Shown in pieces: positions 5,782-24,347 of a DNA stretch of 40,204 nucleotides; position 1 is the stretch's first letter; each line of letters begins with the position of its first letter. A program made the translations under genes and the position numbers. Location of the stretch: assembly GCA_029211065.1 (NCBI GenBank), contig JARGFK010000036.1, forward strand, positions 1-40,204, read 5' to 3'. Source of the DNA: Desulfobacterales bacterium (GTDB lineage Bacteria; Desulfobacterota; Desulfobacteria; Desulfobacterales; JARGFK01). The notes under the pieces are model-generated. The model was not told the origin of the DNA and did no database searches. It saw nothing but the letters and a program-made list of their open reading frames with translations.

Positions 5782-5909
5782 TTTTCACCTTCGCCGGAAT
5801 TCAATCGACTGGTCACGCCGGACACGATCTTAATGGAAATGTAAAGAAGCGCCATTCCTAAAAATACACCGCTGATGCCGGCAACGAAAACGCTTAAAGC
5901 CTCATACAC
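5778..5909 (-). CDS. gcdD: Small membrane subunit of the decarboxylase (OadG/GcdD-like), 43 aa
   Basis: A short gene easily missed: GTG 5909 to TGA 5778. The product begins with a membrane helix (about residues 4-29, LSVFVAGISGVFLGMALLYI) and ends in a short polar tail (TSRLNSGEGEK). This is the plan of the gamma/delta subunits of Na+-pump decarboxylases, which hold the carboxyltransferase to the beta subunit (family knowledge). GGAG lies about 7 nt before GTG. The stop overlaps the gcdB start as ATGA. It is shorter than typical OadG/GcdD, so the C-terminal interaction tail is reduced. Position and topology make the assignment likely; there is no diagnostic motif. Confidence 0.7.
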   Translation of the reverse strand: MYEALSVFVAGISGVFLGMALLYISIKIVSGVTSRLNSGEGEK

Positions 5910-5950
5910 AACGCATCTCCTTTCAGATTTGATTGGAAGAAGGCCTGTTC

Positions 5951-5970
5951 CACATAATGAAACATTGTTT
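5951..5970 (-). promoter_or_regulatory. Putative IclR-type operator upstream of gcdDBCA
   Basis: AAAC-ATT-GTTT (5960-5970) preceded by CATAATG repeats the core and context of the palindromes at the iclR and gctA starts. It lies about 45 nt upstream of the gcdD start, a position suited to repression or activation of the gcd operon. Confidence 0.5.
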
Positions 5971-6048
5971 GGTTTGGCTAAATACCTATACCAGACCGAA
6001 GCAGCATGTCAAGTCGCATTTTATACCAAGGCAGCCCGGTTCAATGCA

Positions 6049-6438
6049 CTATCGAAGCGGCCACTGGCCTCTTTCGGTCAACACCGCCCGGAGCTCCTTC
6101 AAGGCCTCGTTCGTGGCAGGCACACCGCCATAAACAGCCGTTTGAAAAATGACTTCTGCAATCTCCTGCGGGGTGCAGCCCACATTCAAGGCCGCCTGAA
6201 TATGCAGGTTCAGTTCATCCGGGCGGGAAAGCACCGTCAAAGCGGCAACCGTAACCAGCTGCCGGGTTTGATGGGGTATTTTTTCCCGGGCATACATCTG
6301 GCCGGTAATAAACAGGGACAAATCTTTTGCCAAATCCTTGTCAAACGCCTTCCACAGTTCAAAAGGCCTTTCACCGGAAACATCCTTAAAGTAAAGGGCT
6401 GCCGTCTCTTTTGTTTTTTCAACGACTGTTTTGCTCAA
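6049..6438 (-). CDS. Carboxymuconolactone decarboxylase family protein
   Basis: A 129-aa all-helical protein of the CMD/AhpD fold: the core segment HQTRQLVTVAALTVLSRPDE and the following HIQAALNVGCTPQEIAEVI are typical. There is no CxxC redox pair as in AhpD, only one Cys in the conserved helix, so it is more like the gamma-carboxymuconolactone decarboxylase-type proteins of unknown substrate. The start is TTG 6438 with AGGA about 11 nt upstream. It sits between the acyl-CoA dehydrogenase (78-nt gap) and gcdD in the same direction. A role in the glutaryl-CoA pathway is suggested by location only. Confidence 0.8.
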   Translation of the reverse strand: MSKTVVEKTKETAALYFKDVSGERPFELWKAFDKDLAKDLSLFITGQMYAREKIPHQTRQLVTVAALTVLSRPDELNLHIQAALNVGCTPQEIAEVIFQTAVYGGVPATNEALKELRAVLTERGQWPLR

Positions 6439-6516
6439 AACGATAATGTCCTTTCGCTGCCGGAACCGCGGGCGAGATGCAACCCGACAATCCGTATTTT
6501 TCAGAATCCCCGCCGG

Positions 6517-7680: not shown

Positions 7681-7841
7681 GTTTTCCTCCTCCGCATTTT
7701 AATGTTAATCGGCCGAAACGGTGAATAAAATTTCGACCCCTAAACCGTTGACTGCTCCGGAACCAATTGCGGCCGCAGTTAAGTGATACGTAACCCCTGC
7801 TTCAACAGGATTTATCAGCCCTTATAATTATGGGGCCGGTT

Positions 7842-8621
7842 CTAATGGGCATCGCGAGCGCCCATTGCTTCAGAAAATTTTTTGGCAACCAGCAGCAACT
7901 CCCTGACGTATTTTTTTCTGAGTTTTTGATCCCGGTAACGCATTTCCGGAATGGCCAGACTGATCGACGCCAGCAGTGACCCCCGGTAGTCCAGTATCGG
8001 CGCGCTCAGCGACCCCAGACCCGGATTGCGTTCGCCCAGACTGGCGGCATACCCCTGTTTCCTAATGGTTTCAAGTTCTGCCTGAATTTTCTTTTTGTCG
8101 ATCAGGGTGTTTTTTGTAATCGCCGCCAGTTTGACCTGCCGCAGGTATGATTCGATAAATTCCTGCCCTGAAAACGCCAGCAGACATTTGGAAGATGCCC
8201 CGGCATATAGGGGCGAGCGGCTGCCGACCGGCATAAATCCTTTAAGGTTCTGGGAAGATTCCCTATTGTCGATACAGATGCGTTCATTTCTTTCGATGAC
8301 GTTCAGATGGACCGTTTCCTGCGTCCGGGAAAGCAGCTGCATCATATAGGACTGGGCCGCCTGTGTAACCGGATAGGTGCGCTGCAGCGAATGTAAAAAA
8401 CTAAAATAAATATTGCCCAGCCGATACTGGCGGGTTTGGGCGTCCTGATCAACAAAGGCATACGATTTCAGGGTCTGGAGAATTCTCTGGACGGTTGCCG
8501 GGCTGAATCCCAAATGCGTACTGAGTTCTCTGACACCCCAATAGGGTCGCTCCCCTTCAAATGCTTTCAGAATTTTGAGGGCTTTTTCAACCGAGTTGAA
8601 TGTAGGTGTCGTTTGTTTCAT
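7842..8621 (-). CDS. IclR family transcriptional regulator
   Basis: A 259-aa regulator with an N-terminal winged helix-turn-helix (about residues 8-65; WGVRELSTHLGFSPATVQRIL is the HTH) and a C-terminal IclR effector domain (about 80-255). IclR proteins bind small acids or acyl derivatives and control adjacent catabolic operons. The gene is divergent from gctAB and ends the gcd-acyl-CoA dehydrogenase side. ATG 8621 is the first ATG; there is no ribosome binding site, and a perfect palindrome (8625-8641) lies just 3 nt upstream of the start codon, which argues for tight autoregulation or a leaderless transcript. It probably controls gct, gcd and itself in response to glutarate, glutaconate or their CoA esters (inference). 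Confidence 0.88.
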   Translation of the reverse strand: MKQTTPTFNSVEKALKILKAFEGERPYWGVRELSTHLGFSPATVQRILQTLKSYAFVDQDAQTRQYRLGNIYFSFLHSLQRTYPVTQAAQSYMMQLLSRTQETVHLNVIERNERICIDNRESSQNLKGFMPVGSRSPLYAGASSKCLLAFSGQEFIESYLRQVKLAAITKNTLIDKKKIQAELETIRKQGYAASLGERNPGLGSLSAPILDYRGSLLASISLAIPEMRYRDQKLRKKYVRELLLVAKKFSEAMGARDAH

Positions 8622-8641
8622 AATATAAAACAATGTTTTAT
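8610..8641 (-). promoter_or_regulatory. Palindromic operator at the iclR start
   Basis: ATAAAAC-AAT-GTTTTAT (8625-8641) is a perfect 7+3+7 palindrome. A second overlapping near-palindrome, GTTTCATAATATAAAAC (8615-8631), spans the ATG. The minus-strand text from the palindrome into the first codons is nearly repeated, in mirror orientation, at 8776-8805. Confidence 0.65.
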
Positions 8642-8775
8642 TAACAGCGAAACTTATGTCAGACCCGCAGGGCTTTTGTCAAGAATTTTTTGTGCGGCGC
8701 TTCTCCCGCTTTCCGATTCTCCGTTGCTGCAAATGCCTCTTGACAATCAACCCTGAAATTTGTCATAATTTTTTT

Positions 8776-8805
8776 TAAAACATCGTTTTATATTATGAAA
8801 CAAGC
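8776..8805 (+). promoter_or_regulatory. Palindromic operator upstream of gctAB
   Basis: TAAAAC-ATC-GTTTTA (8776-8790) is a perfect 6+3+6 palindrome followed by TATTATGAAACAA. It is the mirror-image counterpart of the site at the iclR start, so the same regulator should bind both sides of the divergent promoter. Confidence 0.65.
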
Positions 8806-8854
8806 AGCGACCCCGTCTTTCAGGAACGTTGCCGCAAACTTAACAGGCAGTTAA
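8795..8854 (+). pseudogene. Vestigial copy of the iclR start (19-codon frame)
   Basis: The plus strand here carries ATG AAA CAA and a 19-residue frame (MKQAATPSFRNVAANLTGS) ending in TAA. It parallels the N-terminus of the divergent IclR regulator (MKQTTPTFNSVEKAL), and the DNA upstream, including the operator, is also duplicated. No ribosome binding site is seen. It is either a remnant of an inverted duplication of the iclR 5' region or a short leader peptide upstream of gctA. Confidence 0.45.
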
Positions 8855-8881
8855 ATCTCATCTTCCAGGAGATTGCGATTC

Positions 8882-9868
8882 ATGCGCATTGAAAAAGGCG
8901 ATTCAAACAAAATAATGCCCCTTGCCGAGGCCATAAAACGTTATGTTTTCGACGGTTGCCATATATCTATCGGCGGTTTTACCATGGTCCGAAACCCCAT
9001 GGCGGCTGTATATGAAATCATCCGGCAGGACATCAAAAACCTTCATCTTTATGCCCATTCCAACGGGCAGGGCGTTGATGAACTCATCGGCGCCGGCTGT
9101 TTGGCAAAGTTGGAAATCGCATATGGCGGAAACGGCCGGTTTGCTTCAACCTGTGTTCGCTTTCGCAAGGCGGTTGAAGCGGGCGCCCTTTCCGTTGAAG
9201 ACTATACCAACTATCAGATGACGTTAAGATTCATGGCCGGCGCCATGGGAGTTCCCTATCTGCCCACCCGCGCCTCTTTGGGAACCGACATCATCAATAA
9301 ATGGGGATTTTCTGAAGCCGTGCGCAAAAAAGATCCGAAAATTCCCGACCGGAAACTGATTGTTGCGGATAATCCCTTTGATACGACGGGCGAAGTGCCG
9401 AAAGTGGTTCTGGTCCCGGCCATCAATACCGATGTGGCGATTTTACATGTTCAAAAAGCAGATGCCCAGGGTACCGCCCGTATCAACGGATTGACCTTTT
9501 CCGATATCGAACAGGCCAAATCCGCCCAACACGTCATTCTTACCTGTGAAGAAATCGTCAGCACGGATGATTTGAGGGCAGATCCGGACCAAAACCAGAT
9601 TCCTTTTTTCTATGTGGATGCGGTCGTCCATATCCCCTTGGGCGCTTTTCCCACGTCCTGTCACCGCTGCTATGACTATGATCCGGTTTATTTGAATGAA
9701 TATCTGAAATCGGCGCAGGACGATACGCAGTTCAAAGCGTACCTTGACAGATACGTCTACGGCGTCAGAGACCATCAGGACATGTTAAAACTCATCGGCC
9801 CGGAGCGCATCAACCGGATCAAGGCGGATCCGCAGAAAGGATATGCCGTCGGACTGGACAGAAGATGA
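8882..9868 (+). CDS. gctA: CoA-transferase subunit A (glutaconate CoA-transferase type)
   Basis: A family I CoA-transferase alpha subunit of 328 aa. It begins with the GctA-like pattern MPLAEAIKRYVFDGCHISIGGF (quoted in part) and contains the glycine-rich segment GAMGVPYLPTRASLGTD. With GctB it moves CoA from an acyl-CoA donor such as acetyl-CoA to a dicarboxylate such as glutaconate or glutarate. AGGAG lies 10 nt before ATG 8882; an upstream in-frame TTG at 8873 would have no spacing to that site. gctB follows after 13 nt. Specificity is inferred from the neighbouring glutaryl-CoA module; related 3-oxoacid or cholesterol-ring CoA-transferases look similar. Confidence 0.82.
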   Translation: MRIEKGDSNKIMPLAEAIKRYVFDGCHISIGGFTMVRNPMAAVYEIIRQDIKNLHLYAHSNGQGVDELIGAGCLAKLEIAYGGNGRFASTCVRFRKAVEAGALSVEDYTNYQMTLRFMAGAMGVPYLPTRASLGTDIINKWGFSEAVRKKDPKIPDRKLIVADNPFDTTGEVPKVVLVPAINTDVAILHVQKADAQGTARINGLTFSDIEQAKSAQHVILTCEEIVSTDDLRADPDQNQIPFFYVDAVVHIPLGAFPTSCHRCYDYDPVYLNEYLKSAQDDTQFKAYLDRYVYGVRDHQDMLKLIGPERINRIKADPQKGYAVGLDRR

Positions 9869-9881
9869 TTTGGAGAGAATC

Positions 9882-10649
9882 ATGACAGAATATACCCCGC
9901 GGGAAATGATGGCAATCGCAGCGGCCCGCCAGATTCAAGATGGTGATATTGTTTTTTGCGGCACCGGCATATCCATGCTGGCCGCCATGGCCGCCAAACA
10001 TATCAGCGCACCCCAGAGCGTCTTGTTTTTCGAAACCGGAGCGATCGACTCGGTTTTAGAAGAAATCCCGCTGACAGTGGCGGATTCCCGGGTCATGTTC
10101 TGGACTTCCGTCAACGGAAGCCTGGCAGACGCTTTTGCCACCATGCAGAATAGAATAACCGGCAGCCATGTCATCGGCATTCTGGGGGCCGCCCAGATCG
10201 ACCGGTTCGGCAATTTAAACTCCACTGTCATCGGCGACTACCACAAACCCGCCGTCCGGTTTTCCGGAAGCGGGGGCGCCAGCGATGTGGCTTCTTTTGT
10301 CAGCCGAACCATCATTTTCATGCAGCATGAAAAAAGAAAATTTGTCTCCAAGGTTGATTATGTCACCAGCCCGGGATGGATCGACGGCCCTGACGGACGG
10401 AAAAGGGTCGGACTCCCGGACGGCGGTCCCTATGCTGTCATCACAAATATGGGAATCTTGTATTTTGACGATCGAACCAAAGAAATGTATCTGGGCGGAT
10501 ACTACCCCGGAGTTGACCCCGACCGCATACTTGACAATATGGGATTTACGGTGGACATTTCCCGGGCAACCGAGGTGGCGCCGCCTTCCCAGCATGAACT
10601 CAGGATTCTGCGGGAGGTTTGCGACCCCCAGCGACTAATACTGGGGTGA
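9882..10649 (+). CDS. gctB: CoA-transferase subunit B (glutaconate CoA-transferase type)
   Basis: The beta subunit of a family I CoA-transferase, 255 aa from ATG 9882 (GGAGAG just upstream). The catalytic glutamate that forms the CoA thioester is probably Glu51 in FFETGAIDS, matching the E(S/T)G motif of GctB. Other hallmarks are the FGNLNSTVIGD segment and the SGGASDVASFV segment around residues 120-140. A longer frame from ATG 9843 would overlap gctA and lacks a binding site. It is followed by a hairpin shared with the convergent aminotransferase gene. Confidence 0.82.
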   Translation: MTEYTPREMMAIAAARQIQDGDIVFCGTGISMLAAMAAKHISAPQSVLFFETGAIDSVLEEIPLTVADSRVMFWTSVNGSLADAFATMQNRITGSHVIGILGAAQIDRFGNLNSTVIGDYHKPAVRFSGSGGASDVASFVSRTIIFMQHEKRKFVSKVDYVTSPGWIDGPDGRKRVGLPDGGPYAVITNMGILYFDDRTKEMYLGGYYPGVDPDRILDNMGFTVDISRATEVAPPSQHELRILREVCDPQRLILG

Positions 10650-11699: not shown

Positions 11700-12461
11700 A
11701 TGAAGTTTATACGTGACCGCGTGCTGCGCCGGGAACTCATGTTCGGCGTAGGCGCCCAACTGGGTTCCAGCCTCACCGTTGAAATGATCGGCGCCGCCGG
11801 CTTTGATTGGACCTGGATCGACTGTGAACATGGGGCCGGCGACCACAGTGAGCTGATTACCCAGATTCAGGTCGCCAGTCTGGGCAACGCCCCGCCGGTT
11901 GTAAGGATCGCCTGGAATGAGGCACCTCGCTTCAAACGGGTTCTTGATCTGGGCGCCAGCGGCATCATGGTGCCGTATGTCAACACCAAGGCCGAAGCCC
12001 GGCTGGCCGCCCAATCCATGCGCTACCAGCCCGAAGGAATTCGCGGGGTCGCGCAGTCTCCCCGATCGTGTGGGTTCGGCCAAAATTTCGAGGATTATTT
12101 TGCCAAGGCAAATGACAATCTCCTGACAATCGTGCAGATTGAAACCCGGGAAGCGGTGGACAACGCCGCTGAAATTGCTGCGGTTCCGGGCGTTGACGTT
12201 CTGTTTGTGGGCCCCTTTGATTTGAGCATCAATATGGAAATTGTTAAAAAATTTGACCACCCCGACTTTATCGCCGCCCTTGAAAAAGTATCCGATGCCT
12301 GCAAACAGCACGGTAAAGCCGCTGGAATCCTGACCCCCAGGTCCGATTATCTTACAGCGTGGATTGAAATGGGGTACACTTTTTTTGTCGTGGGCTCGGA
12401 CAGCGGTTGTGTTACCAACGGCTTAAATCAGATCTATGGCGCCTGTAAAAATTACAAATGA
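11700..12461 (+). CDS. HpaI/HpcH family class II aldolase
   Basis: A 253-aa TIM-barrel aldolase of the 2-dehydro-3-deoxyglucarate / 2,4-dihydroxyhept-2-enedioate aldolase family. The expected active-site residues are present: Asp41 and His44 in WIDCEHG, Arg69 in VVRIAW, and metal ligands Glu148 (IETREAV) and Asp174 (VGPFDLS). It should cleave or form a 4-hydroxy-2-oxo acid with pyruvate as the nucleophile. AAGGAGG stands 6 nt before ATG 11700. A hydroxyacid dehydrogenase and a second, divergent aldolase homologue follow in the same direction with gaps of 60 and 92 nt. The natural aldehyde substrate cannot be read from the sequence. Confidence 0.85.
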   Translation: MKFIRDRVLRRELMFGVGAQLGSSLTVEMIGAAGFDWTWIDCEHGAGDHSELITQIQVASLGNAPPVVRIAWNEAPRFKRVLDLGASGIMVPYVNTKAEARLAAQSMRYQPEGIRGVAQSPRSCGFGQNFEDYFAKANDNLLTIVQIETREAVDNAAEIAAVPGVDVLFVGPFDLSINMEIVKKFDHPDFIAALEKVSDACKQHGKAAGILTPRSDYLTAWIEMGYTFFVVGSDSGCVTNGLNQIYGACKNYK

Positions 12462-12521: not shown

Positions 12522-13481
12522 ATGAAAACGGTTCTCGTCAACAAGCCGATTCACCCGGATGCCTTGAAAAGACTGTCGGAAGAGGTCCGGATATTGACCC
12601 CGTTTAAAGCATCCCGTGCGGAACTTATGGACATGCTTTCCGGGGTGCAGGGGGTTGTCCTCTGTCTCGGGTTGGATTTTACCGCAGAAGTAATCGATCA
12701 CTGCAAAGTCATTGAAGTCATCGGGCGCCACGGCGCCGGCGTCGAAACCGTCGATGTTGAAGCGGCAAACCGCAGGAACATTCCGGTGGTGTTTACGCCC
12801 TTTGGCCCTACGGAATCCACGGCCGAACACGCCTTTACGCTGATGATGGCGACGGCACGCAAATTGTCCCTGCTGGACAGGGAAATCCGTGCGGGTAATT
12901 TCCATATCCGGGATCAGGTCATCGGACGCGAATTGTTTAGCGCCGGTGTCGGCGTTGTCGGATTCGGCCGCATCGGAAAACGCTTTGCGCAAATGTGTCG
13001 GTCTGCCCTGGAAATGGAGATCCATGTTTTTGATCCGCTTTTGGATCGGTCGGAGGTGGAAGCCTGGGGCGCTGTTTATGAAAACGACCTTGTGGAAATG
13101 GCGCGCAAGGTTGATGTCCTTTCGCTGCACTGTCCCCTGACCGATCAGACCCACCAGGTGGTCAACCGCCAAGTGATCGCCGCAATGAAAGCAGATGCGA
13201 TTTTCATCAACGCCTCGCGCGGGCCCCTTGCGGACGAACGCGCCTTGGTTGAAGCCCTGCAGCAGAACAAGATAGCCGGTGCCGGCCTGGATGTATACGA
13301 TCCCGAATCGCCTGCAGAAGACAATCCTTTGTTTTCTTTAGACAATGTGGTACTGACGCCCCATCTGGCCAGTTTCACGGATGAAGGACGAAAGCGCATG
13401 GGACTAACCGTCGTGGAAGATGTTCTCAGCGTCCTGCGCGGCGATCCGCCTAAGTATCCACTCAATCCGGAAGTGCTTTAA
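12522..13481 (+). CDS. D-isomer-specific 2-hydroxyacid dehydrogenase (SerA-like)
   Basis: A 319-aa NAD(P)-dependent enzyme. The Rossmann motif is GVVGFGRIGKRFA (about 147-159), and the catalytic triad Arg (INASRGPL), Glu (YDPESPAEDNPL) and His (LTPHLASFT) is intact. It lacks the ACT domain of long phosphoglycerate dehydrogenases. It probably interconverts a 2-oxo acid and a D-2-hydroxy acid. AAGGAG precedes ATG 12522. Placement between two HpaI-type genes suggests that it reduces or oxidises an aldolase substrate or product rather than serving serine synthesis (inference). Confidence 0.85.
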   Translation: MKTVLVNKPIHPDALKRLSEEVRILTPFKASRAELMDMLSGVQGVVLCLGLDFTAEVIDHCKVIEVIGRHGAGVETVDVEAANRRNIPVVFTPFGPTESTAEHAFTLMMATARKLSLLDREIRAGNFHIRDQVIGRELFSAGVGVVGFGRIGKRFAQMCRSALEMEIHVFDPLLDRSEVEAWGAVYENDLVEMARKVDVLSLHCPLTDQTHQVVNRQVIAAMKADAIFINASRGPLADERALVEALQQNKIAGAGLDVYDPESPAEDNPLFSLDNVVLTPHLASFTDEGRKRMGLTVVEDVLSVLRGDPPKYPLNPEVL

Positions 13482-13573: not shown

Positions 13574-14365
13574 ATGATGAGAAAAAATAAATTGCGCGAA
13601 TTGCTGAAGGCAGGCAAACCGACTGTCGGCACACGGGTGCAAAGCAGCTGGCCGTCTATTGCCGAAGTCATCGGTCATACCGGCATGTTCGACTATATCG
13701 AATTCCTAGCTGAATATGCCCCTTTTGAACTGTATGCACTGGATAATTTTTGTCGTGCGGTGGAACTTTTCGACATGTCCGCCATGATCAAAGTCGATGC
13801 GGAGCACCGGGGGTTTCTGGCCCAGCGCGGCATCGGCGCCGGATTCCAGAGCGTCAATTTTGCCGACTGCCGGTCCGCCGATGACGTTCGCGAATGTGTG
13901 AGAATCACCCGCCCGGATACGCCTGAAGACGGTGGAACCCACGGCGCCGGCATGCGTCGCTTTACGTACATGGGGTACGGGGGCGGCCCTGATTACGTTC
14001 AGGCGCTCCGGGATGTTGTCATCGTCGTGATGATCGAAAAACAATCGGCCGTCGATCAGCTCGATGAAATACTCTCGGTCCGGGGGGTCGACATGATTCA
14101 GTGGGGTCCGTCGGATTATTCCATGAGCGTCGGGCTGGCAGGGAAAAAAAGTGACCCCAAAATCAAAACGGCTGAACGTCTTGTCTTTGAAAAAGCAGCT
14201 AAATACGGCATTCCCGCCCGCGCCGAAATTGCCGGTATCGATCAGATGAAATACTATCTGGATATGGGCGTTCGTCATTTCAATCTGGGTACGGATATCG
14301 GCATTCTATATAACTGGCTGAAAGAAAACGGCGGCAAATTAAGAGAGGTAATAGCAGGCGCTTAG
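13574..14365 (+). CDS. Divergent HpaI/HpcH family protein
   Basis: A 263-aa homologue of the aldolase encoded at 11700. The two metal ligands are kept (Glu155 in MIEKQSAV and Asp181 in WGPSDYS). The DxEH catalytic motif is replaced by EFLAEY, so the His is Tyr48, and the pyruvate-binding Arg is Lys73 (MIKVDAEH). It may therefore bind the same kind of oxo acid but use another mechanism, or act on a different substrate. AAAGGAG lies 5-6 nt before ATG 13574. It is the last gene of the rightward run and is convergent with the GlcD-type gene. Confidence 0.75.
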   Translation: MMRKNKLRELLKAGKPTVGTRVQSSWPSIAEVIGHTGMFDYIEFLAEYAPFELYALDNFCRAVELFDMSAMIKVDAEHRGFLAQRGIGAGFQSVNFADCRSADDVRECVRITRPDTPEDGGTHGAGMRRFTYMGYGGGPDYVQALRDVVIVVMIEKQSAVDQLDEILSVRGVDMIQWGPSDYSMSVGLAGKKSDPKIKTAERLVFEKAAKYGIPARAEIAGIDQMKYYLDMGVRHFNLGTDIGILYNWLKENGGKLREVIAGA

Positions 14366-14433: not shown

Positions 14434-15816
14434 TCAATCCAGATCCATTTTGCCCGGGTTCAGGATGTTGTTGGGGTCCACCAGGCGCTTGATTCCCCGC
14501 ATGAGGGCCATAGCTTCGGCATCATGCTCCAGTGACATGTAGGGGGCTTTGGCCAGCCCGATCCCGTGCTCCCCGGTCAGGGTGCCCCCCAGCGCGCAGG
14601 TGAGCCTGAAAACTTTCTCCACAACATTGCCGAGCCGCCGGACCTGGTCGGGCTCATTCTTGTCATACATGACCTTTGGGTGCAGATTCCCATCACCCGC
14701 ATGCCCGAATATCACGAAAGGGAATCCTTCCTCGCGAACGATTTTGGCAATCTCATCCAGCATGACCGGCACCTGGGAAATCGGTACGGTGACATCTTCA
14801 CTCACGTTGTTCGGACGCATGGACGCCGCCAATCCTGAAATGGATTTTCTGATCCGCCAGAGTTTGGCCGACTTTTCCGATGAACTGGTCGTCTGCTGTT
14901 CGATGGCGCCGCAGCGGGTAAAGACCTCGATAACCTTATCCATCTGAAATTCGGCTTCCGCATCGGTATAGCCGTCCGTTTCCACCAGAATACAGGCCTC
15001 TGCCTGGGCTATCTCCATTTTGTTATTATTCTTCAGCAGTTCCAAGGTATTTGAATCCATGATTTCCATCACACTGGGGACGATGCCGGAGCTCATGATA
15101 CCCGCCACTGCCTCTCCGGCTGCTTTAAGGCTCGCAAAGTAGGCCAGTCCCGTGTGAAAGGCCAAGGGTTTCGGATTAATCTTGAGGGTAATCTCGGTGA
15201 TGACCCCCAGGACGCCCTCAGAGCCCACAAACAGACGGGCGATATCCAGCCCTGAACTGGACTTGATGCAGTGGGAACCAGTCCGCATCAACTTGCCGGA
15301 GGGAAGTACGACTTCCAGCCCCAGGACATAATCACGGGTCGTGCCGTATTTAGCCCCCCGGATGCCGCCGGCATTGGTCGCAACATTGCCGCCAATCGTA
15401 CAGGCCATGGATGACGCCGGGTCTGGCGGAAAGAAATACCCCACCTTGGCCAGCTCCTTATCCAGCTCCGCATAGATGACTCCCGGCTGGACAATCGCCT
15501 GCCGGTCGAGGATATGGATACCCACGATCTTATTCATTCGCATAAGGTCCAAGACGACACTGTCCCGGCCCTGGCTGGGAACGGCTGCCCCTGCCAGGCC
15601 CGTTCCGGCGCCCCTGGGGATAACCGCAAAACGTTCCTGATTCGCCAATTGAAGTACCCTTATGACCTGTTCGGTATTGACGGGCCAGACGGCCGCCAAG
15701 GGTCGATGCGAATGATCCGATGCATCGTATGAATAGGATATCATATCGATTAGACCGTCTGTGACCTGTTCGGGCCCAAGGAATTCCATCAGTTTTTCTT
15801 TAATGCGCTTTCCCAT
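14434..15816 (-). CDS. FAD-linked 2-hydroxyacid oxidase/dehydrogenase, GlcD type
   Basis: A 460-aa flavoprotein with an N-terminal PCMH-type FAD domain (PRGAGTGLAGAAVP near 60-75; GGNVATNAGGIRGAKYGTT near 140-158) and a C-terminal FAD-oxidase domain holding the metal-binding motif GHAGDGNLHP and the terminal GEHGIGLAK. Members oxidise glycolate, D-lactate or D-2-hydroxyglutarate. The usual partners GlcE and GlcF (FeS subunit) are absent nearby, so the electron acceptor is uncertain; ETF is one possibility. The gene is convergent with the aldolase cluster and shares direction with the LarA-like gene. A weak binding site precedes ATG 15816. Confidence 0.85.
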   Translation of the reverse strand: MGKRIKEKLMEFLGPEQVTDGLIDMISYSYDASDHSHRPLAAVWPVNTEQVIRVLQLANQERFAVIPRGAGTGLAGAAVPSQGRDSVVLDLMRMNKIVGIHILDRQAIVQPGVIYAELDKELAKVGYFFPPDPASSMACTIGGNVATNAGGIRGAKYGTTRDYVLGLEVVLPSGKLMRTGSHCIKSSSGLDIARLFVGSEGVLGVITEITLKINPKPLAFHTGLAYFASLKAAGEAVAGIMSSGIVPSVMEIMDSNTLELLKNNNKMEIAQAEACILVETDGYTDAEAEFQMDKVIEVFTRCGAIEQQTTSSSEKSAKLWRIRKSISGLAASMRPNNVSEDVTVPISQVPVMLDEIAKIVREEGFPFVIFGHAGDGNLHPKVMYDKNEPDQVRRLGNVVEKVFRLTCALGGTLTGEHGIGLAKAPYMSLEHDAEAMALMRGIKRLVDPNNILNPGKMDLD

Positions 15817-15936: not shown

Positions 15937-17199
15937 TCAGCCGGCAAACGGACTGATTAGGTCGCCAGCCTTGTCAAGTTCCATCTCATTCCATTTCCCA
16001 AGGATTTTCAGGCCCGGTTTTTGCCTGATTTCACTTTCAAGTGCTTGTGAAACAGAAATATTTTCTAGATCCAAAGTATTTTTGATATGGACCATTCGGA
16101 CCTGCGCCATGGGGATATCGCCGATGGAACTGAAGCAGGCCGCCAATGCCTCCCGGTCGGTGTCAAAATACATCGGGATGGCCCCTTTTTCCGGACTGAT
16201 GGCCGTCAGGCAGTTGACATAGGTCTTATGCCGGTCCATCTTGTTGACGAGCCGCGTGGTGGTAAAATCGGCAAAACCAATTCCAATCGCACTTCCTTCG
16301 GTTGCGGCCGTCAAGTCTCTCACATATATCCGTTTAGGCCGCGGGCCGGTTATAAAGTCGCCCAAAATATCACGGTTGCGGCCGATGACCTTGGTGTCCA
16401 TCCCGGTCCCGGATATATCTTTTCCGATCTGATCGATCACCAGCACATCGATCGCATCAAACGGAATCCGGGCCATCCGCTCTTTTGACGCGGCCAGCAG
16501 TTTCTTTTCACCCTCAAAAATAGATTCCGGCTGCAGCGCCTTGATCAGGCAGGTCTGGTGATAGGCGTTTTCAACAATGCCCAATCCAAAAAGAACCGGG
16601 CATCTCTGGATCACCTCCAGTCCGACATTTTCGACGATCCTTTGAAATGTTAATTTTACTGCAGCGCTGTGATAGTATTCGGCGCCTTTGTGTTTGCCCA
16701 TGCCGATGGCCATCATCTTCATAAGACCGCTTTCGATGGGACCTTCAAACTTTGTATGCGGCTTTACCCGATTGACGACAACAATATGATCCGCCTCATT
16801 GGCATATTTGTCCACATATATCGGATAGCCGTCACTGGCATCTCCCAGGCAGACCACCGCCATGCTGCTGTGCACGGGGCATCCCATGGCCGCTTCGGTT
16901 ATTCCTAAATTTTCAAGAACCTTTAACTGCCCCTTATCCGTTGCGCCGCCGTGGCTGCCCATGGACGGAAAGATAAATGGCTGCGCACCTGTTTTTTTCA
17001 GTTCGTCAACGACGCCCCGTGTTATTAAGTCAATATTGGCGATGCCCCGGCTGCCCCCTGTTATGGCCACCGTCTCCCCGGCTTTTACTTTTTCTTGAAG
17101 CCGGAGCGCCGATACCTCCCTGTACGTCTCCGCACGGACATCCCCAATATGCTGAGGATCAAAGGTCTGATTTATTTTCGCCATTTTAGGAAATTTCAT
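15937..17199 (-). CDS. LarA-like (DUF2088) protein
   Basis: A 420-aa protein of the DUF2088 / nickel-dependent lactate-racemase-like superfamily. The N-terminal domain shows AGETVAITGGSRGIAN and FIFPSMGSHGGAT, in which SHG takes the place of the GTHRP-type motif of LarA. The central RVKPHTKFEGPIESGL and GMGKHKGAEYYH segments are rich in His/Lys. True lactate racemase motifs are not fully matched, so it may be a racemase or epimerase of another hydroxy acid, or need no nickel pincer cofactor. AGGGG precedes ATG 17199; the longer frame from 17241 crosses this site. Its place beside a GlcD-type oxidase suggests hydroxy-acid metabolism. No LarB/C/E genes are in the window. Confidence 0.7.
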   Translation of the reverse strand: MKFPKMAKINQTFDPQHIGDVRAETYREVSALRLQEKVKAGETVAITGGSRGIANIDLITRGVVDELKKTGAQPFIFPSMGSHGGATDKGQLKVLENLGITEAAMGCPVHSSMAVVCLGDASDGYPIYVDKYANEADHIVVVNRVKPHTKFEGPIESGLMKMMAIGMGKHKGAEYYHSAAVKLTFQRIVENVGLEVIQRCPVLFGLGIVENAYHQTCLIKALQPESIFEGEKKLLAASKERMARIPFDAIDVLVIDQIGKDISGTGMDTKVIGRNRDILGDFITGPRPKRIYVRDLTAATEGSAIGIGFADFTTTRLVNKMDRHKTYVNCLTAISPEKGAIPMYFDTDREALAACFSSIGDIPMAQVRMVHIKNTLDLENISVSQALESEIRQKPGLKILGKWNEMELDKAGDLISPFAG

Positions 17200-17396
17200 A
17201 TAACACCCCTTTTGTATGTATACGCCGCTGGATAAAAGCATCTCCTGTTGTAAGATGCAGATGGTTTATCGAGCTATGTCCTTATTGTCAATTGCTGAAA
17301 AATAGGTGCATGATCCATCTGCGTGGATTTCGCTCGTTGTCGCGGATTCAATCTCAGCCGACTCCAAAATGGCAGCCCGCTCGGGCAAGTCGCCCG

Positions 17397-18524: not shown

Positions 18525-19367
18525 TTATTCATGTTTCATCGCTTCCAATATACTTTCTATTGTCGGAAGGGAGGGAGCATCTTTAAAGCCTGCGAGTCGG
18601 GTATAGACATTTGCCGCTGTCTCATGAAACCCGCCCGGCAATCCCGCCGACTCAAAAGTGGACGAAATTTCTTTCATCTCACCAATAAAGCGCCAGGCTT
18701 TTTTGGTAACAAGCCTTACCTTGTCTTTGGACTCATCCGCAAATGTCGAACCGTTTCGGGACCATTCCTCATAAAGTTCTTCACTGACGTTAAAAGCCGA
18801 TGCCGTGGCCAGTATTGCACACAACAATGCAGTCGTGCCCTTTGTATATGCGGCGTAACACATTTTTAGAGCCGACGCTTTTCCGATTTCCTCGCCGATC
18901 ACACTGGTTTCAAGGGGACCGCCAGTAAAAAAAGAGGCCGCCTCGTCGGCACTGGATCCTGACAGATACAACCAGGTCATTCCCCGTTTCGTTGGTGGGT
19001 TGCCGATAATACCGCCGTCAACAAAATCTGCTCCTGCTTTTTGAATCACCTGGGCGATCCGTTTTGTCCGTTGCGGTGAAATTGCGTTTGCATCAAGGTA
19101 AAGGCCTTTGAACCCAAGCGTGGAAACCTGATCGGCAACCGCTTCAGCCGCATGGGGCGGGCATACGCTTACGATGGCCGAACAGGTAGCACACAATGTT
19201 TTCAGATTTTGGGCGTCCTTAAGACCTATTGCTGAGGCCCGCTCATGGGTCTGTGGCCCACGGCCTTCGGAAACCCAGTAAACATTGTTTCCGGCATTCC
19301 GGATAGTTTCCGCGACCCTTATGCCCATATTCCCTGGATTTAATATGCCGATTTTTCTTTGATTCAT
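18525..19367 (-). CDS. NAD-binding 3-hydroxyisobutyrate / 6-phosphogluconate dehydrogenase-like protein (DUF1932)
   Basis: A 280-aa beta-hydroxyacid dehydrogenase relative. The N-terminal Rossmann motif is IGILNPGNMGIRVAE (5-19). The middle carries DGGIIGNPPTKRG, and the C-terminal helical domain (about 160-275) matches the DUF1932 domain; the usual catalytic Lys is in SALKMCYAAYTKG. It probably oxidises a small hydroxy acid or reduces a semialdehyde. GGGGGG precedes ATG 19367. It is divergent from the kor operon across a 315-bp regulatory gap, so the two transcripts may share control. Confidence 0.75.
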   Translation of the reverse strand: MNQRKIGILNPGNMGIRVAETIRNAGNNVYWVSEGRGPQTHERASAIGLKDAQNLKTLCATCSAIVSVCPPHAAEAVADQVSTLGFKGLYLDANAISPQRTKRIAQVIQKAGADFVDGGIIGNPPTKRGMTWLYLSGSSADEAASFFTGGPLETSVIGEEIGKASALKMCYAAYTKGTTALLCAILATASAFNVSEELYEEWSRNGSTFADESKDKVRLVTKKAWRFIGEMKEISSTFESAGLPGGFHETAANVYTRLAGFKDAPSLPTIESILEAMKHE

Positions 19368-19682: not shown

Positions 19683-19919
19683 ATGTCAGAAATAATTATA
19701 TTAAAAAATTCGTGCAAAGGTATTGAAGATTGCGGGATCTGCATGTCGGTATGTCCCAAGAATCTGTTTGCGCCCTCCCATGAGATGAATGAAAGGGGCT
19801 TTCTGCCGCCAAGGGTTATTGATGAAGATCCCTGCACAGTATGTATGAACTGCATGGTCTCCTGCCCGGATATGGCAATTGTGGTGGCAAAGAAAAAGAA
19901 AACCAAGGAACCAAAATGA
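19683..19919 (+). CDS. korD: 2-oxoacid:ferredoxin oxidoreductase delta subunit (2[4Fe-4S])
   Basis: A 78-aa ferredoxin-like subunit. Two cluster motifs are visible: CKGIEDCGICMSVCP near residues 10-24, and CTVCMNCMVSCP near 51-62. The tail is basic (KKKKTKEPK). It passes electrons from the thiamine-diphosphate centre of KorB to ferredoxin. A GAGG motif lies 4-5 nt before ATG 19683. Its stop overlaps the korA start (ATGA), so translation is coupled. It is the first gene of the six-gene operon. Confidence 0.88.
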   Translation: MSEIIILKNSCKGIEDCGICMSVCPKNLFAPSHEMNERGFLPPRVIDEDPCTVCMNCMVSCPDMAIVVAKKKKTKEPK

Positions 19920-21070
19920 AAAAAGAAGAAAGACTGCCGGCCGGGGCCCATTTTATTATGGGCAATATCGCTCTGGCGGAAGGGGCCATTGCCGCCGGCT
20001 GTAATTTTGTCTCCGGATATCCCATTACACCCGCCAGCGAAATTGTCAACCGGCTATCGGTTTTACTTCCGGGTGCCGGCGGCGGGTTTCTACAAACCGA
20101 GGATGAAATCAGCGCCATTTGTGCGGCCATCGGTGCTTCCTGGGCCGGCTGTAAAGCCATGACCGCCACTTCAGGCCCCGGGTTCAGCCTGATGCAGGAA
20201 AATATAGGGTTTGCGGTGGCGACTGAGACGCCGCTGGTAATTGTTGACGTACAGCGACTCGGTCCCTCAACCGGTGTACCCTCCGTCGGGGTGGCCGGCG
20301 ACGTGATCCAGGCGGCCCGTGGTTCTCATGGGGATTACCAGATTATTGCCCTGAGTCCTGAAAGTCCCCAGGAGATGTTTGACATGACCATCCGGGCCTT
20401 TAACCTGGCAGAAACATACCGGGTGCCGGTTTTTATACTGGCGGATGCTTTCATCGGCCATATGCGCGAGCAGGTGGTGATTCCCGCCCAGGACAATGTA
20501 TCATTGCTAAACCGCAAAATACCTGCGCCGGGGACCGATCCGATGTCCCGTCAGGATTTCCTGGATCCGGCCGTTGCACCCATGCCGGTTTTCGGCCGTG
20601 GGCTCAAAGCCCATGTTACCAGTTCCTGCCATGATAAAAACGGGATGCGCAACCTGAGCGATCCGGCGAGCATGCATGCTTTTATTATGAAACCCATTGA
20701 AAAAATTCTAACCCAGCGGGACCGTATCGTCGAAACCGAAAGCGATTATCGCAGCGGGGATACACTCCTTGTCAGCTACGGCACGGTTTCACGTTCAGCC
20801 AAAGCCGCCCTGGCAAAGGGTCGCGCCGCCGGATTCAAAATCGGTCTGCTTCGCTTAAAGACAATCTGGCCGTTCGCCTCCAAAGAGATTGAAGCGGCTG
20901 CCCAAAAGGTCAAGCGGATGGTTGTTCTGGAAAACAATACCGGCCAGCTTTTCCCCTATATTAAAGCCGATGCGGCCGCGTATTGTCGTGTCGATTTTAT
21001 GGGACCCCGGATCCTGGGCCAGATTCCCGACCCCGATGATGTTTTAAAATACATTCAGGAGACTACCTGA
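19916..21070 (+). CDS. korA: 2-oxoacid:ferredoxin oxidoreductase alpha subunit
   Basis: A 384-aa alpha subunit with the pyrimidine-binding domain motif GYPITPASEIVN (about 36-47), the stretch FLQTEDEISAICAAIGAS and GWAG-type core, and a C-terminal domain II (about 270-380). With KorB, KorC and KorD it converts a 2-oxo acid plus CoA to acyl-CoA, CO2 and reduced ferredoxin. The start at 19916 overlaps the korD stop; longer frames from 19841 would read through korD. Substrate (2-oxoglutarate, branched or hydroxylated oxo acid) is not determinable from motifs; the abfD-like gene in the same operon suggests a specialised 2-oxo acid. Confidence 0.88.
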   Translation: MKKEERLPAGAHFIMGNIALAEGAIAAGCNFVSGYPITPASEIVNRLSVLLPGAGGGFLQTEDEISAICAAIGASWAGCKAMTATSGPGFSLMQENIGFAVATETPLVIVDVQRLGPSTGVPSVGVAGDVIQAARGSHGDYQIIALSPESPQEMFDMTIRAFNLAETYRVPVFILADAFIGHMREQVVIPAQDNVSLLNRKIPAPGTDPMSRQDFLDPAVAPMPVFGRGLKAHVTSSCHDKNGMRNLSDPASMHAFIMKPIEKILTQRDRIVETESDYRSGDTLLVSYGTVSRSAKAALAKGRAAGFKIGLLRLKTIWPFASKEIEAAAQKVKRMVVLENNTGQLFPYIKADAAAYCRVDFMGPRILGQIPDPDDVLKYIQETT

Positions 21071-21918
21071 TGGACGCAATTGAGCATCCTTTACGAAAAT
21101 ATACCCGACCCCATGTCACGCGTACCACCACCTGTCCGGGTTGCGGCAACGGGATTGTGGCCCAGGCCATTCTGCGGGCCATTGACGAGCTTGGCCTGGA
21201 GATGGATGATTTTGTCTTTGTATCCGGCATCGGCTGTTCGGCCTGGATCCCCAGCCCGCTCTTTGCAGCCGACACCCTGCATACCACCCATGGCCGCCCG
21301 GTGGCGTTTGCCACCGGTGTCAAACTCGGCCGGCCGGATATGAATGTAATGGTCGTCAGCGGCGACGGCGACTTGACCGCCATCGGCGGGAACCATCTCA
21401 TTCATGCCGCCAGAAAAAATATTGATTTGACTGTCGTCCTGGTCAATAACGGCATTTACGGCATGACCGGCGGCCAGACTGCCCCCACCACCCCGCTGGG
21501 CCTGACCACCATCACGAGCCCTTATGGGACCATGGAACATCCACTGGACATTTCCGCAACGATTGTCGCCGCCGGCGCCCCATTCGTGGCCCGCTGGACC
21601 ACGGCCCACCCGCGCCAGCTGACCCGCTCCATCAAAAAGGGCCTTCAAAAAAAAGGGTTTGCCATGATTGAAGCCATCAGCCAGTGTCCGGTCCAGTTCG
21701 GCCGGGTCAGCAAGCTGGGCAAGGCCACAGATTTTCTCCAGCATTATAAGAAAAACAGTATCAGTTTCAGTAAAGCATCCGGGTTAAGCAGGGAGGAACT
21801 CGCGGGCCGAATTGTCATCGGTGAATTTGTTGATATTGAAAAGCCCGAACTTTCCAGCCAATGGATGGATTTGAAGCATCAAATGGGGCAGGAGGCTCAA
21901 TGTCACAACAAGCAATAA
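21070..21918 (+). CDS. korB: 2-oxoacid:ferredoxin oxidoreductase beta subunit (thiamine diphosphate)
   Basis: A 282-aa subunit that binds thiamine diphosphate. Motifs are TTCPGCGNGIVAQ (about 18-30), GIGCSAW and the metal/TPP site SGDGDLTAIGGNHLIH with VNNGIYGMTGGQ downstream. The start codon shares one base with the korA stop (TGATG). The next gene begins inside its last codons. The GHG-D pattern and the GQTAPTTPLG segment match 2-oxoglutarate/2-oxoisovalerate oxidoreductases rather than single-chain pyruvate oxidoreductase. Confidence 0.88.
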   Translation: MDAIEHPLRKYTRPHVTRTTTCPGCGNGIVAQAILRAIDELGLEMDDFVFVSGIGCSAWIPSPLFAADTLHTTHGRPVAFATGVKLGRPDMNVMVVSGDGDLTAIGGNHLIHAARKNIDLTVVLVNNGIYGMTGGQTAPTTPLGLTTITSPYGTMEHPLDISATIVAAGAPFVARWTTAHPRQLTRSIKKGLQKKGFAMIEAISQCPVQFGRVSKLGKATDFLQHYKKNSISFSKASGLSREELAGRIVIGEFVDIEKPELSSQWMDLKHQMGQEAQCHNKQ

Positions 21919-22448
21919 CCCTGGCCGGCGTCGGCGGGCAGGGGTCGATTTTGGCCGGAGTCATATTCGGATCTGCCGCCGTCACCTACGACCATAAATA
22001 TGCGGTTCAAACCCAGGCATACTCTGCGGAGTTAAGGGGCGGGTTCGCCGCCGCCTGGGTCATCGTGTCGGATCGCCCGGTCCTGTTTCCGCGGGTCATC
22101 CGGCCGGATATCCTGGTCGCCCAGGCCCAGGACGCCATTGACCGTTTTGCCGGGACCCTTCAGCCCGGCGGGATTTTAATTTTTGATTCAGACCTGATCC
22201 AGACAGTCCCCGACGGTATCCAGAACGCCTATGGCGTTGCGGCGACCTCCCTTGCTCGAAATCAGATTCAGGATATGATCGTAACCAACATGATCATGCT
22301 CGGGGCTTTGTGCCGCTTAACTGAAGTGGTGAGCCGCAAGGCGCTGGAAACGGCCATTGCTGAGGCCGTTCCCAAGGGAAAAGTGGATATGAACCACCAG
22401 GCATTCGCGCTTGGCTTCGATACGGTTAAGCTTTTTAAACCTGAATAG
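21900..22448 (+). CDS. korC: 2-oxoacid:ferredoxin oxidoreductase gamma subunit
   Basis: A 182-aa subunit with the family hallmark GVGGQGSILAG at its N-terminus and the AYSAELRGGFAAAWV region. It completes the CoA-binding catalytic domain of the four-subunit enzyme. AGGAGG precedes ATG 21900, which overlaps the end of korB by 19 nt; the longer frame from 21861 is less likely. abfD follows after 24 nt. Confidence 0.88.
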   Translation: MSQQAITLAGVGGQGSILAGVIFGSAAVTYDHKYAVQTQAYSAELRGGFAAAWVIVSDRPVLFPRVIRPDILVAQAQDAIDRFAGTLQPGGILIFDSDLIQTVPDGIQNAYGVAATSLARNQIQDMIVTNMIMLGALCRLTEVVSRKALETAIAEAVPKGKVDMNHQAFALGFDTVKLFKPE

Positions 22449-22472
22449 AATTGTCAGGCAGGAGAATTTGTC

Positions 22473-23912
22473 ATGGGACTTAAGACAAAAAACGAATACA
22501 TTGAATCACTACGTAATATGAAGCCGACGGTTTATATGTTCGGCGAAAAGATAGAAAATGTTGTTGACAACCCCCGCTTAAGGGCCGGAATAGAGGCAAC
22601 CGCGGCAACTTATGAACTTGCTCAAATGCCGGAATACCGGGACCTGCTGGTTACAAAAAGTCCGCTGATTCATGAAGCGGTAAATCGCTTTACCCTGCCG
22701 CCCGGATCCATTCAGGACCTGGTTGCCCGCGTCAAGATAAACCGCACCCTGGGCAACTGGGTCGGCACCTGCCATCAGCGCTGCACCGGTCTGGACTGCC
22801 TCGCAGCCCTTTCCATCGTCACTTTCGACATCGACCGGAAGTACAATTCCACATATTATTCGCGCTTCATCGAATTTTTGAAATATATTCAGAAAAATGA
22901 TCTTACCGCTAACGCCGGCGTAACCGATGTTAAGGGCGACCGGTCACTTTCACCGAAAGAACAGCCGGATCCGGATGTATATCTCCATGTGGTTGAAAAT
23001 CGTGACGACGGCATCGTCGTCCGGGGGGCCAAGGCCCATCAGACCGGTTCGGTTTCCTCTCACGAGATTATCGTTCTGCCCACCCGGGCGCTGCGAAAAG
23101 GCGAAGAGGAGTTTGCCCTTGCTTTTGCGGTGCCATCAGACGCTCCCGGTCTGATCCATATTGTGGGACGTTCAAGCCTGGACACCCGCGAGCTGGATGG
23201 ATGGGATTGTGGCAACACCCGCTATTCCAAGTATTGCCCCACCGTTATTTTTGACAATGTGTTCGTCCCCTGGGAACGGGTATTCATGTACGGTGAGGTG
23301 GAATTTGCCCAGGAAATGGTTGCCCGATTTTCAGCCTTTCACCGCCAGAGTCATGGCGGCTGTAAATCCGGTAAAATCGACTGTATGACCGGAGCTGCAT
23401 TAACCATGATGGATTACAATGGAACCGCCAAGGCCGGCCATCTCAAGCAAAAAGTGATCGATATGATCCACCGCGCGGAAACCCTTTACGGATGCAGCCT
23501 GGCTGCTTCATACGAAGGGCACAAAGAGCCGTCCGGCACTTATTTCATCGATCCGGTTCTGGCAAACGCTTCCAAAATTCACGAAGGCCGGGAAATGGCC
23601 GAGGCAACCCGCCTGATGATCGATGTTTCCGGCGGGTTTGTCGCTGACCTTCCTTCTGATCGCGATTTGGAAAATGAAGACATCGGACCCCTGATTAAAA
23701 AATACTTGAAGGGGGCGTCCGAGATACCTACCGAAAAGCGTATCAAGATGTACCGGTTGGTTGAAAAGATGGCCATGGAAAGCGCCGATACCATCTCCGA
23801 TATTCACGGCGGCGGGTCGCCCGAGGCGCATCGAATCACCATTTTTCGGGAAAGCAACACCGACGCCAAGAAAAAAGCGGCCAAACGTTTGGCCGGAATC
23901 GCAGATACATAA
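22473..23912 (+). CDS. 4-hydroxybutyryl-CoA dehydratase (AbfD) homologue with altered active site
   Basis: A 479-aa flavo-iron-sulfur protein of the 4-hydroxybutyryl-CoA dehydratase / HpaB family. The N-terminal YIESLRNMKPTVYMFGEKIE closely follows AbfD of Clostridium aminobutyricum as I recall it. All four [4Fe-4S] ligands are in place: Cys100 and Cys104 (CHQRC), His290 and Cys297 (HRQSHGGC), equal in spacing to C99, C103, H292 and C299. Thr191 (AHQTGS) matches T190. However, AbfD Tyr296 aligns with His294 and catalytic Glu455 aligns with Ser442 (ISDIHGGGSP). The enzyme may thus dehydrate or isomerise a different acyl-CoA. A binding site (AGGAG) precedes ATG 22473. Co-transcribed with kor, then a VOC gene. 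Confidence 0.85.
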   Translation: MGLKTKNEYIESLRNMKPTVYMFGEKIENVVDNPRLRAGIEATAATYELAQMPEYRDLLVTKSPLIHEAVNRFTLPPGSIQDLVARVKINRTLGNWVGTCHQRCTGLDCLAALSIVTFDIDRKYNSTYYSRFIEFLKYIQKNDLTANAGVTDVKGDRSLSPKEQPDPDVYLHVVENRDDGIVVRGAKAHQTGSVSSHEIIVLPTRALRKGEEEFALAFAVPSDAPGLIHIVGRSSLDTRELDGWDCGNTRYSKYCPTVIFDNVFVPWERVFMYGEVEFAQEMVARFSAFHRQSHGGCKSGKIDCMTGAALTMMDYNGTAKAGHLKQKVIDMIHRAETLYGCSLAASYEGHKEPSGTYFIDPVLANASKIHEGREMAEATRLMIDVSGGFVADLPSDRDLENEDIGPLIKKYLKGASEIPTEKRIKMYRLVEKMAMESADTISDIHGGGSPEAHRITIFRESNTDAKKKAAKRLAGIADT

Positions 23913-23963
23913 ATCAAAAAAACAGGCTTTGTTGCAGGAACCAACAACTTACAGGAGATGTTC

Positions 23964-24347
23964 ATGACATATCGACTTCATCACCTACATTTGCTTTGCA
24001 GCGATTTAGAAAAAACCATTGCCTTTTTTACCGAGACCTTGGGTGCCGACCTGGTTGAAAGAAAACAATTTTCCAACGTCGACGGCGCGACCCTTGATCT
24101 AAACGGCGCCATCATCAATCTACGGATTGCCCGTGATGATGAAAAGGTTTCAGCGGGTGCAACGGTGGCGCAATACGGTTTTCACCATATCGGCCTTACT
24201 GTGGATGACGTTGAACAAACTTATCGGGAACTGTCGTCCAAAGGGTATGTTTTTTCCATCCCCCCAAAAGAAGTCGGGAAAAACAAAATTGCCTTTTTTA
24301 ATGGGCCCGACAATATCATCATCGAACTGCTGCAACCGATCGGATAG
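23964..24347 (+). CDS. VOC/glyoxalase family protein (methylmalonyl-CoA epimerase-like)
   Basis: A 127-aa two-motif vicinal-oxygen-chelate protein. It starts with YRLHHLHLLCSDLEKTIAFF and has the second half QYGFHHIGLTVDDVEQTYREL, ending in NIIIELLQP. Metal ligands are likely the two His of HHLHL and HHIGL and the Glu of IIIELL. Members are glyoxalases, epimerases or dioxygenases. AGGAG lies 6 nt before ATG 23964, and the ATG at 23958 has no spacing. It is the last gene of the kor-abfD operon; epimerisation of an acyl-CoA intermediate is a plausible role (inference). Confidence 0.8.
   Translation: MTYRLHHLHLLCSDLEKTIAFFTETLGADLVERKQFSNVDGATLDLNGAIINLRIARDDEKVSAGATVAQYGFHHIGLTVDDVEQTYRELSSKGYVFSIPPKEVGKNKIAFFNGPDNIIIELLQPIG

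Follow-up and report, generated by a model that had tools for sequence, protein, structure and literature searches.

A clade of AbfD-fold flavoenzymes with replaced catalytic residues, tied to acyl-CoA-forming genes in Desulfobacterota

The DNA analysed here, hereafter the window, is a 40,204-nt stretch of a Desulfobacterales bacterium (forward strand of contig JARGFK010000036.1, assembly GCA_029211065.1). As read from open reading frames (ORFs) and domains, positions 19683-24347 hold six genes, all on the plus strand: four for the subunits of a 2-oxoacid:ferredoxin oxidoreductase (KOR), one for a homologue of the 4-hydroxybutyryl-CoA dehydratase AbfD, and one for a VOC protein.

19683..19919, plus strand: korD, 2x[4Fe-4S] ferredoxin-like subunit, 78 amino acids (aa); Fer4 domains; in NCBIfam closest to the delta subunit of 2-oxoglutarate KOR, under its cut-off
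19916..21070, plus strand: korA, KOR alpha subunit, 384 aa; NF006412 at 448 bits (cut-off 411), POR_N and PFOR_II
21070..21918, plus strand: korB, thiamine pyrophosphate (TPP)-binding beta subunit, 282 aa, signature GIGCSAW; TPP_enzyme_C
21900..22448, plus strand: korC, gamma subunit, 182 aa; PF01558 (POR)
22473..23912, plus strand: abfD-like gene, 479 aa, flavin adenine dinucleotide (FAD)/[4Fe-4S] AbfD fold; HpaB_N/HpaB domains, alignment to 1u8v and fold comparison
23964..24347, plus strand: VOC (glyoxalase/epimerase-like) protein, 127 aa; Pfam Glyoxalase

Overlaps of 4 nt (korD/korA), 1 nt (korA/korB) and 19 nt (korB/korC) join the KOR genes, the ATG of korC at 21900 being preceded by an AGGAGG ribosome-binding site. 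Gaps of 24 nt and 51 nt separate korC from the abfD-like gene and the latter from the VOC gene, for which the ribosome-binding site favours a start at 23964 over the 23958 of the mechanical ORF list. An original prediction, made from the sequence, had described the same layout, overlaps and gaps, and its gene calls match Pfam and NCBIfam for all six genes. With POR_N, PFOR_II, TPP_enzyme_C, POR and Fer4 subunits all present, the KOR set has the general make-up of a 2-oxoacid:ferredoxin oxidoreductase; the nearest solved chain of KorA is 1yd7.

The best solved relatives of the 479-aa protein are the 4-hydroxybutyryl-CoA dehydratases 1u8v (E 2e-138) and 6vjr (E 9e-125). In the 1u8v alignment, the cluster ligands C99, C103, H292 and C299 of AbfD lie in gapless motifs and correspond to C100, C104, H290 and C297, and Gln101, Thr190 and Lys300 are retained as Gln102, Thr191 and Lys298. 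Two catalytic residues, also in gapless motifs, are replaced: Tyr296 by His294 and Glu455 by Ser442. The original prediction had claimed an AbfD homologue with four ligands kept and these two residues changed, and the alignment bears it out, down to the residue numbers. Its list was nevertheless incomplete, since Glu257 is replaced by Cys255 and, close by, Gly255 by Lys253. Ser456 of AbfD is Asp443 here, and Asn194 is Ser in the clade of the window protein. A structure model built from 35 loci (pLDDT 88.9) has the AbfD fold, with Z 52.9 and 1.6 A over 475 residues against 1u8v, and Z 53.4 and 1.8 A over 475 residues against 6vjr. Alignment with AbfD, proposed earlier as a check, placed no Tyr or Glu at these active-site positions. 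An HpaB-type flavin monooxygenase was rejected as a candidate, as the protein scores 192 bits against an NCBIfam HpaB cut-off of 480 and has the cluster ligands.

A sample of 395 Desulfobacterota genomes, together with a scan of species genomes, yielded 89 clade loci, some of them reached twice; among the clade members is a copy in Desulfonema magnum (L087). Their proteins are 71-81% identical to that of the window, and the next homologues are at 51% and below. In AbfD numbering, His occupies position 296 in 89/89, Ser position 455 in 88/88 and Ser position 194 in 89/89, whereas position 257 is Cys at 82 loci, Ala at 5 and unread at 2. Other clade-specific positions are G254S, G255K, N372H, T374G, S456D, A460G and Q466H. 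The cluster ligands are retained at every clade locus having sequence there, and Lys298 and the flavin-site motifs are invariant. In contrast, 20 of 20 canonical homologues read Y/E/E/N, and all further canonical rows checked read Y/E/E. Judged by these comparisons, the clade-wide residue changes are far beyond chance. On the family tree, the clade forms a single branch (support 100) beside the canonical enzymes (grouping support 86). A literature text search found no description of the clade, which is not proof of absence.

These data bear on the simplest alternative, that the clade consists of ordinary 4-hydroxybutyryl-CoA dehydratases or vinylacetyl-CoA isomerases tolerating substitutions. 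Retention of the fold, of the FAD and cluster residues, and of Lys298, Gln102 and Thr191 agrees with it. However, Tyr296, Glu257 and Glu455 are invariant in all canonical homologues checked and replaced throughout the clade, and many clade genomes, the source genome of the window included, have additional AbfD homologues; we regard this alternative as highly improbable. On sequence grounds, the protein is a distinct AbfD-fold acyl-CoA enzyme that is unlikely to be a 4-hydroxybutyryl-CoA dehydratase. The route first suggested, from 5-hydroxy-2-oxovalerate via 4-hydroxybutyryl-CoA to crotonyl-CoA, is thus left unsupported by the loss of the dehydratase residues. A different substrate, which was also suggested, is likely.

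The second AbfD homologue of the source genome (G000:C6:22249-23691, reached as L002 and L148) retains Tyr296, Glu257 and Glu455 and has Phe instead of the Cys299 cluster ligand (HRQSY-A-FK). At another locus (L194:16364-17854), a distant second AbfD/HpaB-like gene (36% identity) lies beside TRAP genes, with a clade member in the same locus. The family tree also contains, in the same phylum, at least four further altered AbfD-family groups: CYRC (Cys296, Gly455), CQRC (Asp257), CATC, and one without cluster ligands (loci listed as L110, L111, L113-L115; L112, L116, L125; L118, L119; L117, L120-L124).

Inspection of the neighbouring genes revealed two dominant arrangements, KOR loci (n=24) and ligase loci (n=26). 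In the KOR loci, korDABC adjoins abfD, so that the pairing seen in the window recurs in other genomes, and a 2-hydroxyacid dehydrogenase of PGDH, Ldh2, GlcD or LhgO type is near 18/24; the six loci without one are mostly short or truncated. In the ligase loci, sucC- and sucD-like genes, usually with a GntR regulator, are divergent from abfD, PGDH or Ldh2 is near 0/26, and abfD is often followed by LhgO/GlpA-like, GlpB-like and DUF1667 genes. The ligase-GntR-abfD set stands alone in many genomes. Within the phylum sample, the specific KorB or the specific SucC-like ligase was found in 30/32 clade genomes versus 3/363 others (Fisher 3e-39, without correction for phylogeny; two of the clade genomes were recovered at contig ends). 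Several apparent exceptions were explained by contig ends, and the two partners occur together in only two genomes (G167 and G299). The abfD tree has the KOR state at its base, the ligase state being a later acquisition; as this needs only two changes, the mutual exclusivity of KOR and ligase was dropped as an independent proof.

The order kor-abfD-VOC, whose conservation the original prediction proposed to check, is kept only in its first part: VOC adjoins abfD in 3/24 KOR loci and 0/26 ligase loci, and was removed from the core set. The window VOC protein reaches 36.7 bits versus a cut-off of 114.95 for TIGR03081 methylmalonyl-CoA epimerase, and the proposed third step, an epimerisation, finds no support in these results.

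The KOR is swapped for an acid-CoA ligase while abfD stays; therefore, abfD needs an acyl-CoA, not the KOR. This persistence bears on a further alternative, in which the flavin/[4Fe-4S] protein would either work in the manner of an acyl-CoA dehydrogenase, with no radical involved, or assist the KOR structurally or in electron transfer. The loss of general acid/base residues and the fold in common with acyl-CoA dehydrogenases (Z about 25) lend it some weight, but the cluster ligands, Lys298 and flavin-site motifs are all invariant, and a gene that outlasts the KOR is not simply serving it. We consider this alternative distinctly improbable.

Some loci add HpaI, DapA or KDPG-type aldolases, an IlvD-like dehydratase, nickel-pincer isomerases (group 22 or LarA type) or an SDR, and some an aldehyde:ferredoxin oxidoreductase-like gene, BKACE, OYE-type reductases or TRAP/TAXI/Tct/Liv transporters. 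As far as their predicted functions go, these genes point to small hydroxy-acid or sugar-acid chemistry; part of these assignments was read from sequence alone and is weaker than the rest. Three loci (L049, L051 and L058) have BKACE and 3-hydroxyacyl-CoA-dehydrogenase-like genes beside the clade abfD, and in L051 and L058 a different KOR with an NAD(P)/Fe-S subunit stands in place of the Trp-type KOR described below.

The abfD-linked KorB carries the motif GIGC[SA]AW, with Trp where 2-oxoglutarate-using enzymes have Lys or Arg. Apart from the divergent KOR of L051/L058, every abfD-linked KorB whose sequence covers the position of StOFOR Lys49b has Trp at it; the Lys/Arg expected of a 2-oxoglutarate KOR is thus missing. 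In StOFOR1 the K49I change abolishes 2-oxoglutarate activity (PMC5020499), although H. thermophilus KorAB is without that lysine and yet 2-oxoglutarate-specific (PMC5020499). Because of this Trp, the substrate of the abfD-linked KOR is probably an uncharged 2-oxo acid other than 2-oxoglutarate. A route from 2-oxoglutarate to succinyl-CoA was also considered, and is weakened by the Trp and by having no need for AbfD. The Trp was dropped as a feature exclusive to abfD loci, since KorB 52-56% identical and with the same Trp is also found away from abfD; four such KOR operons without abfD (L201, L204, L205 and L207) lie beside TRAP/Liv transporters or 5-oxoprolinase pxpABC-like genes. In the ligase loci, the loop that reads NIFGGI(V/T)R(C/A)D in true succinyl-CoA synthetases is NxYGGINPIHEGA in the abfD-linked SucC. 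The KorB Trp and the altered ligase loop both lean away from a dicarboxylate.

The clade, its fold, residues and partners are computed, and they describe a variant of a known radical enzyme family that is real, conserved and biochemically uncharacterised, with firm ties to genes for acyl-CoA formation. In these sediment bacteria it probably runs an undescribed step in the anaerobic breakdown of small hydroxy acids; the radical mechanism, substrate and product are what we infer. In the best explanation, which is tentative, the 479-aa protein is one of a group of AbfD-fold acyl-CoA radical flavoenzymes that stands apart and split off long ago, and it acts on an acyl-CoA made in the same operon by AbfD-type radical chemistry with a new acid/base set. 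In the ancestral set, a PGDH-, Ldh2- or GlcD-type dehydrogenase would turn a 2-hydroxy acid into a 2-oxo acid, which the Trp-type KOR would convert to acyl-CoA, CO2 and reduced ferredoxin; in the derived lineage, the succinyl-CoA-synthetase-like ligase would make the acyl-CoA directly from the acid. The sequence from oxo acid to acyl-CoA to an AbfD-type step, as first predicted, gains support from the conserved linkage. FAD would carry the radical chemistry together with the retained [4Fe-4S] cluster, whose Cys3His ligation leaves room for an oxygen ligand, and Lys253, Cys255, His294 and Ser442-Asp443 would form the new acid/base set.

The preferred reaction, to which we give about a third of our confidence, is gamma-dehydration of a short acyl-CoA with hydroxyls at both the beta and the gamma carbon; 3,4-dihydroxybutyryl-CoA, for one, would yield acetoacetyl-CoA. 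The smaller side chains would make room for the extra hydroxyl, and the chemistry would use the AbfD steps established for 4-hydroxybutyryl-CoA. Such a reaction would be redox-neutral overall, and central metabolism could take up its product with no other dedicated genes. The ligase-GntR-abfD set, which stands alone in many genomes, favours a step of this kind.

Several points weigh against this explanation. 3,4-Dihydroxybutyrate is not known to be an abundant substrate of these organisms, and the 2-hydroxyacid dehydrogenases of the KOR loci would need 3-deoxy-aldonates as substrates. The loop 437-447 that holds Ser442, the equivalent of E455, has a pLDDT under 50 in the predicted model. The KOR-to-ligase switch looks like about one event on the abfD tree, for which reason the exclusivity is not independent evidence. 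Finally, one genome (G033, locus L187) has the ligase, GntR, LhgO, GlpB and DUF1667 set without abfD, so that this set can work or persist on its own.

The remaining alternatives draw on the other genes of the window:

18525..19367, minus strand: NAD-binding/DUF1932 dehydrogenase (3-hydroxyisobutyrate/tartronate-semialdehyde reductase-like), divergent; domain and family matches
15937..17241, minus strand: nickel-pincer 2-hydroxyacid isomerase, group 22; NF052515 at 527 bits (cut-off 400)
14434..15816, minus strand: GlcD-type FAD 2-hydroxyacid dehydrogenase; family match
13574..14365, plus strand: second HpaI-like aldolase
12522..13481, plus strand: D-2-hydroxyacid dehydrogenase, PGDH/GhrB-like; a relative is near most KOR-abfD loci
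11700..12461, plus strand: HpaI/GarL-like aldolase
2644-10649: glutaryl-CoA module, with GcdA-like carboxyltransferase, Na+-pump decarboxylase beta subunit (GcdB-like), glutaryl-CoA dehydrogenase (NF045552, 784 bits), IclR-type regulator and GctAB-like CoA transferase

The group 22 isomerase recurs near the abfD clade (L043, L049:8498-9787, L050:17841-19100 and L192 about 8377), and may act on the same 2-hydroxy acid as the abfD-linked route.

In one alternative reaction, unlikely though the strongest contender, X-CH2-CO-SCoA would lose its alpha-substituent by reduction; the main case is glycolyl-CoA to acetyl-CoA with KOR ferredoxin electrons, the glycolyl-CoA arising from hydroxypyruvate by loss of CO2 or from glycolate and CoA. 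The window agrees with it in its GhrB-like dehydrogenase, GlcD, GarL-like aldolase and D-amino acid transaminase (glycerate/hydroxypyruvate type), as does a locus (L039) in which abfD is preceded by a KDPG aldolase gene and by one resembling aldehyde:ferredoxin oxidoreductase. KOR, ligase, CoA transferase and BKACE could all make such an acyl-CoA, and the activation genes fit it as well as they fit the preferred reaction. Yet it would consume two electrons and pass through a ketyl at very low potential with no help from ATP, it offers no beta carbon for AbfD chemistry, and the smaller side chains of the replaced residues point to an acyl group that is larger rather than smaller. A sulfonate version, from sulfoacetyl-CoA to acetyl-CoA and sulfite, would suit the Ldh2 of one locus (L080), whose best match is the L-sulfolactate dehydrogenase model, under its cut-off. 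It is weakened by the KorB Trp, which speaks against an anionic 2-oxo acid, and, as to sulfite release, by dsrA, which was not found above cut-off in 13/30 clade genomes, several of them nearly complete.

Rather less likely still is an acyl-CoA substrate that bears a distal carboxylate: 4-hydroxyglutaryl-CoA, which is 2-hydroxyglutarate esterified to CoA at C5, is an example, and its gamma-dehydration would give glutaconyl-CoA for a glutaconyl-CoA decarboxylase module. The loss of two Glu and gain of Lys253 would suit such a substrate, as would the GctAB-like, GcdA-like, GcdB-like and glutaryl-CoA dehydrogenase genes of the window, the LhgO-like partner in ligase loci and the succinyl-CoA-synthetase ancestry of the ligase. 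On the other hand, KOR loci would need the unusual 5-hydroxy-2-oxoadipate, KorB has Trp instead of Lys/Arg, and the R-(C/A)-D loop conserved in succinyl-CoA synthetases is gone from the ligase. Only in the window does GctA lie near abfD, and glutaryl-CoA genes, near abfD in a minority of other loci, are no general neighbour. The glutaryl-CoA genes to which the original prediction joined the operon are real neighbours at 2644-10649, but this linkage was not seen as a rule at other clade loci.

Setting the preferred reaction within a wider claim, we find it about as probable as its contrary that the clade catalyses an undescribed acyl-CoA reaction, for example a radical diol-type dehydration of a beta,gamma-dihydroxyacyl-CoA or a reductive alpha-substituent removal. 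In sulfate reducers and syntrophs, the reaction would belong to a path that leads from a 2-hydroxy acid through a 2-oxo acid and an acyl-CoA to a central CoA ester. If true, the clade would define how these organisms use small hydroxy or sugar acids anaerobically, and would fill a catabolic gap in Desulfobacterota that are widespread and for the most part uncultured. Few flavin/[4Fe-4S] enzymes, AbfD among them, carry out radical chemistry without S-adenosylmethionine, B12 or oxygen; a clade keeping the cluster but replacing the acid/base set would separate the residues that determine the reaction from those that determine the substrate. In annotation, genes of this kind are easily labelled 4-hydroxybutyryl-CoA dehydratase or 4-hydroxyphenylacetate 3-hydroxylase.

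Among known systems, AbfD of Clostridium aminobutyricum (1u8v, 47% identity) is alike in fold, cluster ligands and the equivalents of Gln101, Thr190 and Lys300. The clade differs from it by the changes of Tyr296 to His, Glu257 to Cys/Ala, Glu455 to Ser, Ser456 to Asp, Gly255 to Lys and Asn194 to Ser, and by its partner genes. The Nitrosopumilus maritimus 4-hydroxybutyryl-CoA dehydratase (6vjr, 42% identity) shares fold and cluster ligands, and the same of its catalytic residues are replaced in the clade. With 4-hydroxyphenylacetate 3-monooxygenase HpaB and relatives, the Pfam HpaB_N/HpaB domains and overall fold (Z 35-40) are in common, but HpaB is without the cluster ligands, whereas the abfD-like protein is an anaerobe's enzyme with the ligand set intact. 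The KOR resembles StOFOR, MmOGOR and the 2-oxoglutarate KOR 8ys5 in its korDABC four-subunit make-up and TPP and YPITP motifs; these have Lys/Arg for 2-oxoglutarate, whereas the clade KOR has Trp and belongs to a subfamily that, within the phylum sample, is linked with the abfD clade. The ligase shares overall sequence and the phosphohistidine loop GHAGA with succinyl-CoA synthetase SucCD, and departs from it in the loop replaced by NxYGGINPIHEGA.

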